IMG/VR virus record: IMGVR_UViG_3300045972_000291
Span: 1-64,000 of that record
From: a virus
DNA: 64,000 bases
Strand: one strand, 5' to 3'
The translations under genes were made by a program, and so were the position numbers. Below the pieces are notes generated by a model. The model saw nothing but the letters and a program-made list of their open reading frames with translations. It did no database searches and was not told the DNA's origin. This document shows, one piece after another, positions 3,588 to 49,003 of this stretch (positions are counted from its first letter, which is position 1; each line of letters begins with the position of its first letter).

Positions 3588-5647
3588 TCCGCTGCTTCGA
3601 ATAGGGTTGGAAGTTCCGCCTTGGCGCGGGACTTTTTGCGCGTCGGTTTGGCGTCTTCGTCCGGTGTGTAATTCGCGGCGACAAGGGCCTTGGCCATGAC
3701 GGGGCTGACGCTGTTGCCGCACATGCGGACCGAGGCCGTGCCGGTCAGTTTTGTGCCGTCCGGGCGGCGGTCGATCACGTAGGAATCGGGGAAGCCCTGG
3801 GCGCGGAAAAGTTCGCGCGGGCGCAACATTCGCATGCCGATATCGACGATCTCATAAGGCTCGCCGTGGACCATCACGAGGCCGAAGCGGTCGCGGGTCG
3901 GGACGGTGTGCATCGGCTCGGCCGGGCTGACGCCGTCCTTGTCGTTGCCGTAATATTTGACCAGGAAGGCGCGCACCTCGGCGCTGTGCGTGCCCTGCGC
4001 CGTCACGGTCGGATGCGGAACTTCGATGTCGCTGGCTCGGCGATCCGAGCCCTTGAGGCTCAAGAGATGTGCCGAAACCACGCCCTGTTGCGCGCCGGTC
4101 GCGGTGACCGTCGAGACCGGTTCGTCCGCCGGGCGCGAGCCGGGGCATTTGCCGCCATTATGCTGGGCGAGGAAGGCCGCGACGACGCCGATAGGAGCGG
4201 CGCCGCCCGGGCGCTTGATGAAACTGTTCGCGGTGATGGTATGCAGCGGCTCGTCGGCGCCGGAGCCGACCGATCCGGTGTTGAACTTGGTGATATGCGC
4301 CGCGACGACGCCGTGACGCGGCGCGCCGGCCATGACGGTATGCAGCGGCTCGTCGGGCAGATGGCCGACTGAGTTCTCGCTGAACTTGGTCAGGTGGACG
4401 GCGGCGAGGACGGAATCGGCCTTGGTGGTCACCGTCTGCAGGGGTTCGTCCGCCGAGCGCGGTCGCGATTGGCCGGCGCGACCGCCGCAACCGGCGATGA
4501 CGGGCACGACGATCGCGTTCTGGTCCTTCTGCGACGCGGTGATCGTGTGCAGCGGAGCATCGGCAGGGCGGTTCGCCCCGCCGTGCTGGGCGTAGGTGAC
4601 AAAAGGAGCCGGCTCAAGAACGGTCTCAACGAGGGCGTGCTTAACGCCCCCGGCGACGACGGTGCCAAGTGGCTTATCAATGCCGGGGACACGTGGCGAC
4701 TGCCCGGCGCGCTCACCATAGCCGGTCTGGATGATTGTCGGCACGACGAGACCGTGCGCGATCCCGCCGCCCGTCACCGTGCCGAGGGGCTCTTCCATAG
4801 GATATTCGCGGCGCCCGCCTGAAAAACCGTGCGCGACGGAAATGATGAAAGGCTCGGCCGCGTCGATGACATAGCGCTGCACGCCCTTGGCGATGCGCGC
4901 CATGGTCGCCTCGGCCAGCGGGCGGTTGACGCCGACGGCGCGGCCTTCCTCGCGCGTCAGGAAAATGCTGTGGCAGGGCAGCGTCCAGTCGATGATTTCC
5001 GCCGCCGTGCGCCAGGGCTGGAGCTTGCCGCTTTGGACCTCTTCGGATTTCGGATTGCCATGCGTCGGCGTCGGCCAGACGATGGGGCGGCCATCGCAGC
5101 GGGCAGCGAGAAACAGGCGCTTACGGATGGTGGGCGCGCCATAGTCGCAGGCGCGCAGTTGGCGCCACTCGACCTTGTAGCCGAGCTTTTTGAACTCGCC
5201 GACCCATTTGCGGAAGGTCTCGCCCTTGCGGCCCTCGGCGGGCCGGTCGGTCTCGTCGAGCGGGCACCAATCCTGAAACTCTTCGACGTTTTCGAGCAGG
5301 ATCACGCGCGGGCGGCGGCGTTGCGCCCAGAGGACAACAACCCACGCCAGGTCGCGGATGTTGCGCGAGAGCGGTTTGCCGCCCTTGGCCTTCGAGTGGT
5401 GTTTGCAATCCGGGCTGAACCAGGCGAGGCCGATTGGACGGCCCGGCATGACTGCATCGGGATCGATCTGCCAGATGTTCGAATTCAGGTGCAGCGTGTG
5501 CGGGTGGTTGACCTCGTGCATGGCCAGCGCGTCGGCGTCGTGATTGATCGCGACGTCCGGCGAACGTCCGAGCGCCATTTCGATGCCGGTCGAGGCGCCG
5601 CCGCCGCCAGCGAACGAGTCGAGAATGATTTCGCGCGGTGCGTTCAC
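3584..5647 (-). CDS. C5-cytosine DNA methyltransferase with repeated insert
   Basis: A 687-aa enzyme expected to methylate cytosine C5 using S-adenosylmethionine. Motif I is FAGGGGAS (residues 12-19), the motif IV region is FSPDCKHHS with catalytic Cys81, motif VI is ENVEEF (119-124), and motif VIII is TIRKRLFLAA (173-182). C-terminal motifs LRPRELFRAQGFPDSY and GNSVSPVMA close the fold. The usual PPC is SPDC here, a known variant in phage enzymes. Between roughly residues 270 and 590, where the target-recognition domain should be, the protein has about nine degenerate copies of a unit centred on ADEPLHTVT. Likely role: protecting phage DNA from host restriction or altering host methylation. 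Start is GTG 5647. Confidence 0.92.
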   Translation of the reverse strand: MNAPREIILDSFAGGGGASTGIEMALGRSPDVAINHDADALAMHEVNHPHTLHLNSNIWQIDPDAVMPGRPIGLAWFSPDCKHHSKAKGGKPLSRNIRDLAWVVVLWAQRRRPRVILLENVEEFQDWCPLDETDRPAEGRKGETFRKWVGEFKKLGYKVEWRQLRACDYGAPTIRKRLFLAARCDGRPIVWPTPTHGNPKSEEVQSGKLQPWRTAAEIIDWTLPCHSIFLTREEGRAVGVNRPLAEATMARIAKGVQRYVIDAAEPFIISVAHGFSGGRREYPMEEPLGTVTGGGIAHGLVVPTIIQTGYGERAGQSPRVPGIDKPLGTVVAGGVKHALVETVLEPAPFVTYAQHGGANRPADAPLHTITASQKDQNAIVVPVIAGCGGRAGQSRPRSADEPLQTVTTKADSVLAAVHLTKFSENSVGHLPDEPLHTVMAGAPRHGVVAAHITKFNTGSVGSGADEPLHTITANSFIKRPGGAAPIGVVAAFLAQHNGGKCPGSRPADEPVSTVTATGAQQGVVSAHLLSLKGSDRRASDIEVPHPTVTAQGTHSAEVRAFLVKYYGNDKDGVSPAEPMHTVPTRDRFGLVMVHGEPYEIVDIGMRMLRPRELFRAQGFPDSYVIDRRPDGTKLTGTASVRMCGNSVSPVMAKALVAANYTPDEDAKPTRKKSRAKAELPTLFEAAE

Positions 5648-6219
5648 GATGTCATCTCCCTATCCGCTTCGGCCTTGGCCTCATTCAGTTCCGCCATGGC
5701 GCCAGCAGAGCCACCCGTATCGGGGTGACGCTCTTTCGCCAGAGCGCGATACCGGGCCTCGATTTCTGTCCGGCTGCCGGCAAAGCTGGATGAAAATCCG
5801 AAGACTTCTCGCCAGGTCTTTTTTGCCGGCGCCGGCAGGGCGATAAATCCCTTCATCGTCGCGTGAACGAGCGCCAGCGTCCCGTGACGGAGCTCGACCC
5901 GGCGCGCCTCGATGATGTGGTAAATTGCCTGCAGGTTGGCCTCGACCGTCGCGTATCGGTCAACTGCGATGCAGACCTGCAGACCGTCCCATGTGAACCA
6001 CGCCGCCACGCCAGGGTCTTGCGGCCGCTCGGCGCCAAGAGACACGTTTGACGACAAAACGATGTGCTCCAGCTTCCGTCCGCTATCGCGGCCAAAGGCG
6101 ACGAGCGATCCCTGAACATTCTTCAGGGCGCCGGAGAGCGATGTCTTGAACTGGCCCTTTTCCCGCGATCTCGTGCGTGGGAAGCCCTCGGGCCACTGAA
6201 GAGGATAGGCCTGCGTCAT
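5644..6219 (-). CDS. J-domain (DnaJ-like) phage protein
   Basis: A 191-aa protein whose last 65 residues look like a J domain: EVFGFSSSFAGSRTEIEARYRALAKERHPDTGG contains the HPD tripeptide needed to stimulate Hsp70 ATPase. The N-terminal 120 residues form a separate domain of unknown role (MTQAYPLQWPEGFPR onwards). It probably recruits host DnaK to a phage substrate, possibly in replication or assembly. The ATG at 6219 overlaps the stop of the preceding small membrane gene, which rules out the longer in-frame extension. Similar J-domain proteins occur in other phage early operons. Confidence 0.8.
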   Translation of the reverse strand: MTQAYPLQWPEGFPRTRSREKGQFKTSLSGALKNVQGSLVAFGRDSGRKLEHIVLSSNVSLGAERPQDPGVAAWFTWDGLQVCIAVDRYATVEANLQAIYHIIEARRVELRHGTLALVHATMKGFIALPAPAKKTWREVFGFSSSFAGSRTEIEARYRALAKERHPDTGGSAGAMAELNEAKAEADREMTS

Positions 6220-16557: not shown

Positions 16558-16887
16558 TCACCCCGATTTTCTCGGAAGAGCGTTCTCGATTACTATTTTC
16601 AACCGATCGCTATCTTCTTTCTTATGGTTGGCAAAAAGCTTCGACAGCCAATCGTCTTTGGGGTGGCGAAATAGGTCGTTCGGTTCGATTGAGAGTGCGT
16701 CGCAAATCAGCAACAGGTTTTTTTCGGATGGGAGCGATCCGCCGCACCACTTCGAAACCGTAGCCTTGTTGACGCCAACAAGCTTCTCCAGATCGGCCTG
16801 GATCATGTGACGCGTCTCCAGCCATTCAACCAGATAGTGAATGCGGATCGGGCGCTTATCTGCATGAATTTTTGCAATCTTTGGCAT
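16558..16887 (-). CDS. CI-like HTH repressor
   Basis: A 109-aa XRE-family protein, probably the lysogeny repressor. The HTH reads IQADLEKLVGVNKATVSKWCGG, followed by LPSEKNLLLICDALSIEPNDLF. There is no LexA-like protease domain, so induction would not be by RecA-stimulated self-cleavage but by an antirepressor or another signal. It faces the Cro-like gene across an 85-94-bp intergenic region with three operator-like motifs. The start ATG at 16887 lies 6 bases beyond a TAAAAT -10, so the message may be leaderless. Confidence 0.82.
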   Translation of the reverse strand: MPKIAKIHADKRPIRIHYLVEWLETRHMIQADLEKLVGVNKATVSKWCGGSLPSEKNLLLICDALSIEPNDLFRHPKDDWLSKLFANHKKEDSDRLKIVIENALPRKSG

Positions 16888-46268: not shown

Positions 46269-46570
46269 TGCTCACCGTCCCTTTGAAGGCAGTCCCATCG
46301 CAAGCGGTGACCGTGACGCTCGCAGGCCAAAACTGCCAGATCAACGTCTATCAGAGGTTTTATGGCCTTTTCGTCGATCTCTACGTCGACAATGCACTCG
46401 TCATCGCCGGGGTTCTGGCGCTGAACCTCAACAAGATCGTGCGCAGCGCCTATTTCGGATTCTCCGGCGACCTCGCCTTTGTGGATACCCAAGGCGCTGA
46501 CGACCCGTCATATTCCGGGCTCGGGTCGCGCTTCGTGCTGGCCTATTGGGATGCGGGTGAGATGGGGTAG
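46268..46570 (+). CDS. Small tail/baseplate protein
   Basis: A 100-aa beta-rich protein, MLTVPLKAVPSQAVTVTLAG then QNCQINVYQRFYGLFVDLYV. This is a DUF6983-type baseplate plug/hub protein placed between hub genes. It overlaps the previous stop at TGATG. After it the gene order switches to the immI-like island. Confidence 0.75.
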   Translation: MLTVPLKAVPSQAVTVTLAGQNCQINVYQRFYGLFVDLYVDNALVIAGVLALNLNKIVRSAYFGFSGDLAFVDTQGADDPSYSGLGSRFVLAYWDAGEMG

Positions 46571-46589
46571 TAGTATAGAGTTTCTGTGT

Positions 46590-46904
46590 TTAATTGCCGT
46601 GCGTACTGTCAATTGCCTTGCTCATAAAAACAAGCACACCCCAAGCGCACGCATCAGCGTTTAGCCCGCTTATACGGCAATTCAGCATCGATTTTCTTAA
46701 TTCTGGCTCGCATTGTTTTTGATAAAAATGCAATTCTTGCTCGTCATCACCTATGCGGTCTTTCCGGATGCGGTCAGAATTGGACCAAATGCACGCGATT
46801 ATAGCCTTATCCGTATCATCGTTTTGCGCAGATACGACGCCAGCATGGGCGACGGATGGAAAAATCTGAGCAAAACACAGAAGGGCAACGGTCGAAAGTT
46901 TCAT
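46590..46904 (-). CDS. Secreted moron, lysogen-expressed
   Basis: A 104-aa protein with a signal peptide (MKLSTVALLCFAQIFPSVAH, cleavage after AHA) and four cysteines in the mature region (IIACIW, KQCEPELRKS, LNCRISGLNADACAWG), perhaps two disulphides. It is AT-rich and transcribed opposite to the tail genes, directly downstream of the ribbon-helix-helix repressor gene. A ribosome site GGGGGG is six bases from the ATG. It is probably expressed from the prophage in the lysogen, as a conversion factor. Confidence 0.7.
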   Translation of the reverse strand: MKLSTVALLCFAQIFPSVAHAGVVSAQNDDTDKAIIACIWSNSDRIRKDRIGDDEQELHFYQKQCEPELRKSMLNCRISGLNADACAWGVLVFMSKAIDSTHGN

Positions 46905-46931
46905 GGGTTTCCCCCCAAAAAGGAGGCCAGC

Positions 46932-47108
46932 CTATTTCGCCAGTGCGATCTCGACAAGACGGCGGATAGCCTCAGGGTGGGAAGGTTTGGGGTCGGGCTG
47001 CTCTTCAATGAAGGAATCGAGCGCGGCAAGCTCGGGCGGGTGAAGACGTACGCCAATCATGCTGATCCGCGACCTGCTCGCGCTCTGACCTTCTGAAAAA
47101 CTGACCAT
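46932..47108 (-). CDS. Ribbon-helix-helix (Arc/Mnt-like) repressor
   Basis: A 58-aa protein starting MVSFSEGQSASRSRISMIGV and continuing RLHPPELAALDSFIEEQP then EAIRRLVEIALAK. The beta strand (ISMIGVRLHPPEL), two helices and the terminal RRLVEIAL are characteristic of Arc/MetJ-type RHH dimers. The gene is divergent from a P22-type antirepressor and begins within 136 bases of it. It is too short for many gene finders. It probably represses the antirepressor, like P22 Mnt. Confidence 0.82.
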   Translation of the reverse strand: MVSFSEGQSASRSRISMIGVRLHPPELAALDSFIEEQPDPKPSHPEAIRRLVEIALAK

Positions 47109-47243
47109 CCAAGAACTTCACCCCCATGGCTGGGGATGATGAGCGCGACCGGATTCCCGAGCTTCTTTGCCGGGGTCGGTCGCTTTGCGACTGCCCGCCG
47201 CGTTCCGGGTCCAGCCAGGACCCCGGCAAAGGAGAACCTGAAC
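47109..47243. promoter_or_regulatory. Divergent control region of the immI-like island
   Basis: The 135-base interval between the RHH repressor and the antirepressor contains the inverted repeats CCCC-atggctg-GGGG (47133 region, imperfect) and GGTCC-AGCCA-GGACC (near 47207), which are candidates for repressor binding. No clear -35/-10 pair stands out. The assignment rests on the divergent arrangement. Confidence 0.45.
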
Positions 47244-48068
47244 ATGGAAAATAGAGAACTTCGCACCGTCCCGTTTCACGGCGACGAAATCGTGACCTTC
47301 GAAGCCGAGGGCGTGCGCTATGTCGCAATGCGCCGGATCGTCGAGAACATGGGTCTGAGCTGGGGAAGCCAGCACGACAAGCTTATGGATCAAAAGACGA
47401 AATTCAGTTGTACCGATATCGCCACAACTGGCGCTGACGGCAAAATCTATGAAATGCTCGCCATGCCAGTCGAAAAGCTTCCCCTTTGGCTGGCGTCAAT
47501 CAACCCGAACAAGATCAAGTCCGAGCCGACGCGCGCCAAGGTCGAGCGCTACCAGGCCGAATCCGCCATCGCTCTGCATGACTATTGGACCAAGGGCGTC
47601 GCGGTGCGCGGCGACATGGATGGCGTCGTGACCGATATCGGCGCCGAGGTCAGGCGGGCCATCGGCGGGATCGTCAAGGGCATCGTCCACAAAGAACTTG
47701 TTTCCGTGCTGCCGCAGATGGTTGAAAGCGCCATCGTTGCGGATTCCCGGCGCGCGGCGCTCAATGTCGTGTCGGTGCGCCAACTTACGGCGGACGCCAT
47801 CGAGAAGGGCCGCAACAGCGTCAATCGCAAGATCGGCTACGGTCTGCGCAATCGCGCCGCCGCCGATCCCGATGGCGGCAAAGCATTCCGATGCCCACAT
47901 ACCGGCGTTTGGCTCTTTGATCGCGCCTTTGCCGAGAGGTTCATGCGCGAGGCTGGAGACACGATGGTGCGCGCACATAACGACCGGATACGGGGCCAGG
48001 GCGTATTGAAGCTCGTGCCGCCCAAGCCGGAGAAAGACGAAAGCGATCTTCCAGGACGTCCGGCCTGA
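47244..48068 (+). CDS. ant: P22-like antirepressor (P22_AR_N domain)
   Basis: A 274-aa protein with the antirepressor N-terminal domain: LRTVPFHGDEIVTFEAEGV, YVAMRRIVENMGLSWGSQHD, and MLAMPVEKLPLWLASINPNK IKSEPTRAKV ERYQAE. The C-terminal half contains helical segments and a YGLRNRAAADPDGGKAF region. P22 Ant binds and inactivates CI-type repressors. It is preceded by GGAGAACC and followed by a strong terminator. Its divergent RHH neighbour makes an immI-like unit inserted in tail genes. Confidence 0.85.
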   Translation: MENRELRTVPFHGDEIVTFEAEGVRYVAMRRIVENMGLSWGSQHDKLMDQKTKFSCTDIATTGADGKIYEMLAMPVEKLPLWLASINPNKIKSEPTRAKVERYQAESAIALHDYWTKGVAVRGDMDGVVTDIGAEVRRAIGGIVKGIVHKELVSVLPQMVESAIVADSRRAALNVVSVRQLTADAIEKGRNSVNRKIGYGLRNRAAADPDGGKAFRCPHTGVWLFDRAFAERFMREAGDTMVRAHNDRIRGQGVLKLVPPKPEKDESDLPGRPA

Positions 48069-48094
48069 TTTTTCGCCCGATTCGCATCAATCAG

Positions 48095-48119
48095 GCCGCC
48101 TTCGGGCGGCTTTTTCTTT
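48095..48119 (+). terminator. Rho-independent terminator after the antirepressor
   Basis: GCCGCC, tetraloop TTCG, GGCGGC, then TTTTTCTTT. This is a strong intrinsic terminator. It lies 27 bases beyond the antirepressor stop and would isolate the island from the tail operon downstream, or require anti-termination for late transcripts to pass. Confidence 0.88.
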
Positions 48120-48133
48120 GAAGGCGTCGCAGA

Positions 48134-49003
48134 ATGACTTTCGTCAAGCGAGAAATCTCCGTTTCCTTCAATCTGGCAAAAGGTAATTTCGAGGGCGGCG
48201 GCAACAAGGCGACTGTGACCGGCTTGCGCATTTCGGCTCACATCCTCAACGCCGGGGGCGGCCATGCTGGCACGCTCGCGATGACGATCTACGGCCTCCC
48301 TTTATCGATGATGAACCAGCTTACAACGCTGGGAACGCGAACAAATTACATCTACCAGAACACCGTTTCCGTCATGGCGGGAGACGCCATCGCTGGCATG
48401 AATTTGGTTTTCAAAGGGAACATCACTTACGCGTGGACCGACGCGGCGTCGCAGCCGAAGGTCTGCTTCCGCCTTGAGGCCGTCGCCAGCGGAGATCAGA
48501 TGGTGAAATCGGCGCCGCCGACGAGTTATCAAGGCGCCGCCGATGTTGCGACGATCATGGGGAAGTTGGCGAAGGCCATGGGCCTTTCGTTCGAAAACAA
48601 TGGCGTCAACGTCAAAATAGCGAACCCCTATCTTGCCGGGTCCCCGTGGCATCAAGTGCTCGCACTGGCTCAGCATGCGGGCATCGAGCACATCATCGAC
48701 AAGGGGACGCTGGCGATCTGGAACAGCGGCCAGTCCCGAAAAAAGGGGCCGGTCCTGATCTCCCCGTCGACAGGCATGGTCGGCTACCCGGCATTCAACG
48801 AGAGCGCGATCGTCGTCAAATCGATCTTCAATCCATCGCTCGACCCCGGCGCCGAGATCACCGTCAAAAGCGACCTGACGCCGGCATGCGGCACTTGGAA
48901 TGTTACCGGCGTCGAGCACGATCTTGAAAGCGAAGTCTATCAGGGGCGGTGGTTTACGTCCGTCGTCGCCACGACGCCGCACCAACCGGGACTGACGCCA
49001 TGA
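48134..49003 (+). CDS. Baseplate hub protein
   Basis: A 289-aa protein of the gp44/gpD-like hub type: MTFVKREISVSFNLAKGNFE, RISAHILNAGGGHAGTLAMT, IYGLPLSMMNQLTTLG and a C-terminal GTWNVTGVEHDLESEVYQG. The hub forms the centre of the baseplate that receives the spike. The gene begins 15 bases after the terminator and overlaps the spike gene by four bases (ATGA). Confidence 0.85.
   Translation: MTFVKREISVSFNLAKGNFEGGGNKATVTGLRISAHILNAGGGHAGTLAMTIYGLPLSMMNQLTTLGTRTNYIYQNTVSVMAGDAIAGMNLVFKGNITYAWTDAASQPKVCFRLEAVASGDQMVKSAPPTSYQGAADVATIMGKLAKAMGLSFENNGVNVKIANPYLAGSPWHQVLALAQHAGIEHIIDKGTLAIWNSGQSRKKGPVLISPSTGMVGYPAFNESAIVVKSIFNPSLDPGAEITVKSDLTPACGTWNVTGVEHDLESEVYQGRWFTSVVATTPHQPGLTP

Follow-up and report, generated by a model that had tools for sequence, protein, structure and literature searches.

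A predicted C4-like RNA in an immI-like phage island carries the Shine-Dalgarno sequence of a P22-type antirepressor gene

C4-type RNAs have been described from P1/P7 and P4 and from relatives that are mostly gammaproteobacterial or belong to Burkholderiales, and the criteria for C4 include RNase P processing and action in trans. P1/P7 C4 and P4 CI RNA (RF01695; c4-a1b1, RF03163) have a three-way junction made of a closing stem, a short hairpin, a hairpin with a larger loop, and a linker; a′ lies in the linker and b′ in the loop, and the a1 and b1 sites lie upstream, spaced by ~7 nt. In P1, the RNA is located before the antirepressor operon. C4 of P1/P7 acts by pairing in trans (PMC5320573, PMC12197685). 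Rhizobiales are not among the taxa given for the earlier C4 predictions (PMC5320573). All of the structural features listed, and the location before an antirepressor gene, recur in the element that we describe here.

A second described arrangement is the immI region of P22. Its record reads, in order, sieA, orf59a, and mnt on the minus strand, then arc on the plus strand, sar on the minus strand, and ant on the plus strand, followed by a terminator and gene 9. The IsrK/antQ region of Gifsy-1 (reviewed in PMC12197685) likewise ties a phage RNA to antirepressor-type regulation, and we found isrK beside the P4 C4 RNA. However, the fold and target of that RNA are different, and isrK had no match in the 64,000-nucleotide stretch that we analyzed (the window), which comprises positions 1 to 64,000 of IMG/VR record IMGVR_UViG_3300045972_000291 (full record, 66.9 kb).

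An island among tail genes compared with P22 immI

The original prediction described an immI-like secondary control island inside the tail operon, in which a ribbon-helix-helix (RHH) gene and a P22-type antirepressor gene face each other across 135 bp. The ORF list contains every ORF at the coordinates given, the gap has that size, and the neighbors are tail/baseplate genes, with a Pam3 gp18-like plug upstream and a gp41-like baseplate hub downstream (Pfam/PHROGs). The island contains the following genes and signals.

46590–46904, minus strand: 104-aa ORF with a signal-peptide-like N-terminus, downstream of the RHH ORF (ORF list)
46932–47108, minus strand: RHH ORF of 58 aa, with the core at residues 18–58 and non-homologous residues 1–17 (family comparison, profiles)
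47068–47088, plus strand: 3′ remnant (..RDLLAL stop) of a twin-arginine-like gene (21-nt identity to loci L023/L199)
47244–48068, plus strand: P22-type antirepressor of 274 aa with P22_AR_N (Pfam, PHROGs, alignment to P22 Ant)
48093–48117, plus strand: intrinsic terminator after ant, with a stem at 48093–48112 and a T tail

The designation of the antirepressor as P22-type was borne out by matches of the product to P22_AR_N (PF10547; E = 9e-40) in Pfam and to anti-repressor Ant (phrog_524) in PHROGs. Across residues 9 to 228, it is 33 to 36% identical to the Ant proteins of P22 and epsilon34. Since its nearest relative (80% over 84 residues) sits in Rhodoblastus, the host of the phage is, on this sequence likeness, probably alphaproteobacterial. 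In a separate pair of loci, L006 and L007, the ant genes (4959–5759) encode identical C-terminal halves and divergent N-terminal domains, a sequence pattern that suggests exchange of the specificity half. The Rfam RNAs STnc100 (L012:2780–2896) and int-alpA (L011:2442–2506) lie less than 3 kb from other P22_AR_N genes.

A gene-by-gene comparison with P22 supports the assignment as an immI-like control island in the late region. As in P22, a divergent RHH gene (without its N-arm in the window) stands opposite an Ant protein of the same family, the location is among late genes, and the predicted terminator after ant is real. The small ORF behind the RHH gene is placed as orf59a is in P22; its signal peptide is plausible by eye, and it had no meaningful family match in Pfam, PHROGs, or NCBIfam and no relatives. 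RNA-level control at the start of ant is a further likeness, predicted in the case of the window. In contrast to P22, the window has no arc-like second repressor, and the promoter/operator region of its RHH gene appears to have been lost. Moreover, P22 sar is an antisense RNA transcribed separately from within ant, whereas in the window a C4-type structure lies on the sense strand. We rejected a minus-strand antisense transcript of the Sar type, as no terminator lies there. The phage was also said to have a CI-like repressor without a cleavage domain. This description holds, since Peptidase_S24 was not found anywhere in the 66.9-kb record and the HTH repressor (16558–16887) is only 109 aa long.

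A predicted C4-type RNA in the 135-bp region

The region between the two genes had been read as the operator of the RHH protein. It is filled instead by a predicted structured RNA that was overlooked in that reading, in which a 16-nt inverted repeat closes a three-way junction. The RNA and the sites associated with it are as follows.

47127–47133, plus strand: a1 site, sequence TGGCTGG, located in a small hairpin and complementary to the RNA linker
47141–47147, plus strand: b1 site, sequence GAGCGCG, complementary to the loop of hairpin 2 with one G-U
47162–47234, plus strand: C4-type three-way-junction RNA (inverted repeat, fold, descriptor, model R1, covariation)
47199–47205, plus strand: b′ CGCGTTC, in the hairpin-2 loop
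47211–47218, plus strand: a′ CCAGCCAG, in the linker
47228–47234, plus strand: Shine-Dalgarno (SD) sequence of the antirepressor, AAAGGAG, base-paired within the closing stem's 3′ arm (unpaired probability, ~0)

Within the 16-bp closing stem, hairpin 1 (6 bp, 3-nt loop) abuts hairpin 2 (5 bp, 8-nt loop), and the linker leads back to the stem. This is the topology of P1 C4 RNA and P4 CI RNA. A descriptor of the C4 topology, which also matches P4 CI RNA, was run on both strands of the window, and the sole match with a closing stem of at least 12 bp was 47162–47234. Neither the window element nor its relatives matched Rfam at the gathering cutoff, the C4 model RF01695 included, and the window RNA has no sequence or covariance model match to RF01695; kinship to the C4 RNAs of P1 and P4 is therefore one of design rather than of score. 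The window RNA also differs from these in that its 3′ arm holds the antirepressor SD. C4 of P1 has a second target downstream, a2/b2, over the ribosome-binding site; no matching pair was found downstream of the window RNA, and the SD lies inside the RNA's own stem.

Both a′ and b′ are complementary to sites on the same operon, the pairs in the window being TGGCTGG/CCAGCCA (a1/linker) and GAGCGCG/CGCGTTC (b1/loop). The energy of the window duplex alone is unexceptional in GC-rich DNA (P = 0.03 against shuffled upstream sequence and 0.14 against random 60-mers from the window). Across the elements, cognate a1b1 duplexes outdo swapped partners (P, ~1e-5), and the window target favors its own RNA (rank 1 of 17). 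The ant frame is open upstream through the entire RNA element, adding 36 codons from an ATG at 47136 (47136–48068), and an N-terminally extended form of Ant is possible. We rejected the leader as an Ash/Icd-like peptide gene, for which there was no Pfam, NCBIfam, or phage support.

Relatives of the element and loss of sequence beside the RHH gene

Viral contigs yielded ~17 related elements, almost all of which have a divergent RHH gene. Two loci fetched for their RHH genes (L044 and L023) gave descriptor matches on the strand opposite RHH, a pattern scan of IMG/VR added ~7 elements, and models R1 and R2, run on RHH loci, added L042, L049, L060, L256, L272, L280/L281, L286, and L291. Model R1 was built from nine relatives with the window left out, and its top match was the window element (27.9 bits; E = 0.0021; runner-up, 16.2 bits). 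In alignment A6, which was fitted to the model, 16 of 21 pairs had changes on both sides and 96% of cells were paired; none of 500 shuffles reached its covariation score. The earlier, unfitted alignment A4 agrees, with seven pairs changed on both sides and a covariation score likewise reached by 0 of 500 shuffles.

Complementarity of a1 to the linker and of b1 to the loop was present in all relatives checked, with double changes (P = 0.0005 for b1), and the order and spacing of a1 and b1 upstream of the elements are as in P1. Co-changed b1/loop pairs include GAACGCG/CGCGTTC, AGGCACG/TGTGCCT, AGACGCG/TGCGTCT, AAGCGCG/CGCGCTT, CAGCGCG/TGCGCTG (L042), and GTTGCGCG/TGCGCAAC (L291). These data bear on whether the hairpin is purely a leader that masks the SD in cis, as a thermometer or by coupling to translation, and neither releases an antisense RNA nor acts in trans. 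Such a leader would account for the SD in the closing stem, a1/b1 are in the same transcript and could pair in cis, and leader ORFs (47126–47254 and from 47136 onward) traverse the structure. However, a1/b1 covary with the loop and linker, as in the antisense systems of P1 and P4, and inspection of the relatives' sequences showed that the leader ORFs are not conserved. We consider a purely cis-acting leader somewhat unlikely.

The element was found before none of the other P22_AR_N genes examined. Five close relatives of Ant (L003, L004, L006, L007, and L014) have different strong hairpins before ant. These are conserved, of the form GGACGG..CCGCCC, 30 to 130 nt upstream of the gene, and are perhaps a different regulatory RNA. 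A blastn comparison of the relatives' elements with named phages and plasmids gave no match. A model search of genomes from the host order of one relative, run under strict filters and with no positive control, matched 0 of 397, and one further exact-pattern scan returned just one known element and one chance match. We conclude that, as judged from sequence, the elements are a distinct C4-like RNA family that is absent from Rfam 15 and, at blastn sensitivity, from named phage and plasmid records. The family differs from P1/P7 and P4 C4 also in its link to a divergent RHH gene and in its probable alphaproteobacterial hosts.

The 58-aa RHH ORF had no Pfam match by itself. Its family did: 9 of 11 aligned members matched RHH_1 (best E = 1.3e-5), and the family profile matched NikR (E = 6e-4). 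With a profile of the family, we found that nine independent phages have an RHH gene close to a P22_AR_N gene (the window, L002/L005, L003, L006, L024, L033, L047, L070, and L080), divergent in all nine. RHH was also divergent from the C4-like element wherever both were found (~15 loci). We conclude that the recurring link between RHH genes and antirepressors across phages is real.

The order in the relatives is RHH on the minus strand, an intergenic region, and then, on the plus strand, at least one gene followed by a1b1, the RNA, and the target gene; the intervening genes usually end with a twin-arginine-like gene. Clear promoter-like sites with palindromes lie in the RHH-side intergenic regions of L044 and L225. 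The window has neither this intergenic region nor the intervening genes. It retains the final 21 nt of the twin-arginine-like gene, which in L023 sits between RHH and the RNA. The RHH ORF starts within this remnant and is fused to it, its residues 1 to 17 being encoded antisense to the lost gene's end. At that position, RHH relatives have a basic N-arm, often KKRGRP-like, that is absent from the window protein. In a scan of 46500–48200 for consensus matches, which is weak evidence in this host, we found no sigma70-like promoter site. The RHH-side intergenic regions of L042/L271, L023, L200, L213, L044, and L225 also hold a second conserved leader hairpin, GGGCCGG..AAGGTG..CACC..CCGGCCCTAACC, ahead of the first gene after RHH. 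The window lacks this hairpin; the L271 copy has a weak likeness to Rfam Plasmid_R1162 (E = 0.1).

The original prediction held that the RHH protein is an Mnt/Arc-like repressor that binds 47109–47243 and represses the ant promoter, which would leave the RNA a secondary role. Membership in the RHH family, a frame that is still open with an intact beta-alpha-alpha core (residues 18 to 58), the recurrent divergent arrangement, and the parallel with P22 all favor such a repressor. However, the relatives keep their promoter and palindrome elsewhere, between RHH and the next gene, in the segment that the window has lost; the 135 bp encode a C4-type RNA; the N-arm has been replaced by sequence antisense to a gene remnant; and no promoter-like site was seen. 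We regard RHH repression through this region as improbable, and of the original interpretation the immI-like island stands and the operator role of 47109–47243 is unsupported. With the intergenic region and genes lost, the N-arm gone, and no promoter seen, it is doubtful that RHH controls ant in this phage. Its RHH protein is probably impaired or has ceased to regulate the ant promoter, and, judged by sequence, the gene resembles a shortened remnant of a larger control module that recurs in relatives. In the window, silencing of the antirepressor by the RNA has better support than RHH control.

The same deletion could mean that the island is decaying, with RHH and ant promoterless and the locus a relic silenced inside the tail operon and reached only by late read-through. 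The disappearance of the leader genes and of the intergenic region with its promoter, and the lack of a sigma70-like site, agree with this. However, the antirepressor ORF is intact and well conserved, promoter scans carry little weight in this host, and the SD, a1/b1, RNA structure, and terminator have all been kept despite wide divergence of the family. We consider decay unlikely. Our favored reading, which we hold to be probable as a whole, is that the island arose by deletion from a recurrent module (RHH, divergent leader genes, a1b1, C4-type RNA, and antirepressor) in which silencing by the RNA is the main control.

Controlled genes and a proposed mechanism

A start codon closely follows the RNA elements, and for 17 of 18 elements folding predicts a paired SD. 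Six of the elements precede an antirepressor gene, with N-terminal types assigned by Pfam (by sequence resemblance for L272): P22_AR_N (the window), Rha-KilAC (L023, L042, and L049), and Bro-N-KilAC (L060 and L272). The downstream gene is of the phrog_4652 type in ~11, of which just two members were scored against PHROGs, and no clear downstream frame was read in L291. Behind the C4-like RNA, the phrog_4652-type genes stand where an antirepressor gene would otherwise be (L167:6552–7304, L200:5961–6614, and relatives), which suggests that their products are candidate new lytic-switch proteins.

The fold, covariation, complementarity, SD masking, and family context found in silico lead us to a main explanation that we think likely, in which the RNA silences the antirepressor in the lysogen through an SD lock in cis and a1/b1 pairing. 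The mRNA of ant would fold into the C4-like three-way junction and so bury its own SD; on this model, the structured RNA probably keeps ant off. The hairpin-2 loop (b′) and the linker (a′) would pair with a1/b1 of the leader, either in trans, as modeled on P1 C4 and P4 CI RNAs, or in cis. Pairing and cis lock together would hold antirepressor output low in the lysogen. We infer the silencing itself, the antisense action in trans, what the antirepressor targets, and the time at which the lock would open. Antirepressor made in quantity would inactivate a repressor, plausibly the small CI-like protein without S24, and lytic growth or induction would follow. Release of the antirepressor would matter to a phage with a non-cleavable repressor.

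The new RNA family is found repeatedly alongside an RHH gene in immunity islands of the late region and contains the ribosome-binding site of the antirepressor within the RNA itself, and it points to phrog_4652 as a candidate new lytic-switch protein. A broader reading, to which we give slightly less than an even chance, is that these antisense RNAs form an exchangeable cassette that bears the SD of the following antirepressor, in which the covarying letters of a1b1 and a′b′ set immunity specificity. It would cover P22-Ant, Rha-KilAC, Bro-N-KilAC, and perhaps phrog_4652 proteins in phages of probable alphaproteobacterial hosts. If it is true, phages with matching a1b1/a′b′ codes would silence each other's antirepressors, and the covarying target code leads to directly testable predictions on cross-immunity between phages.
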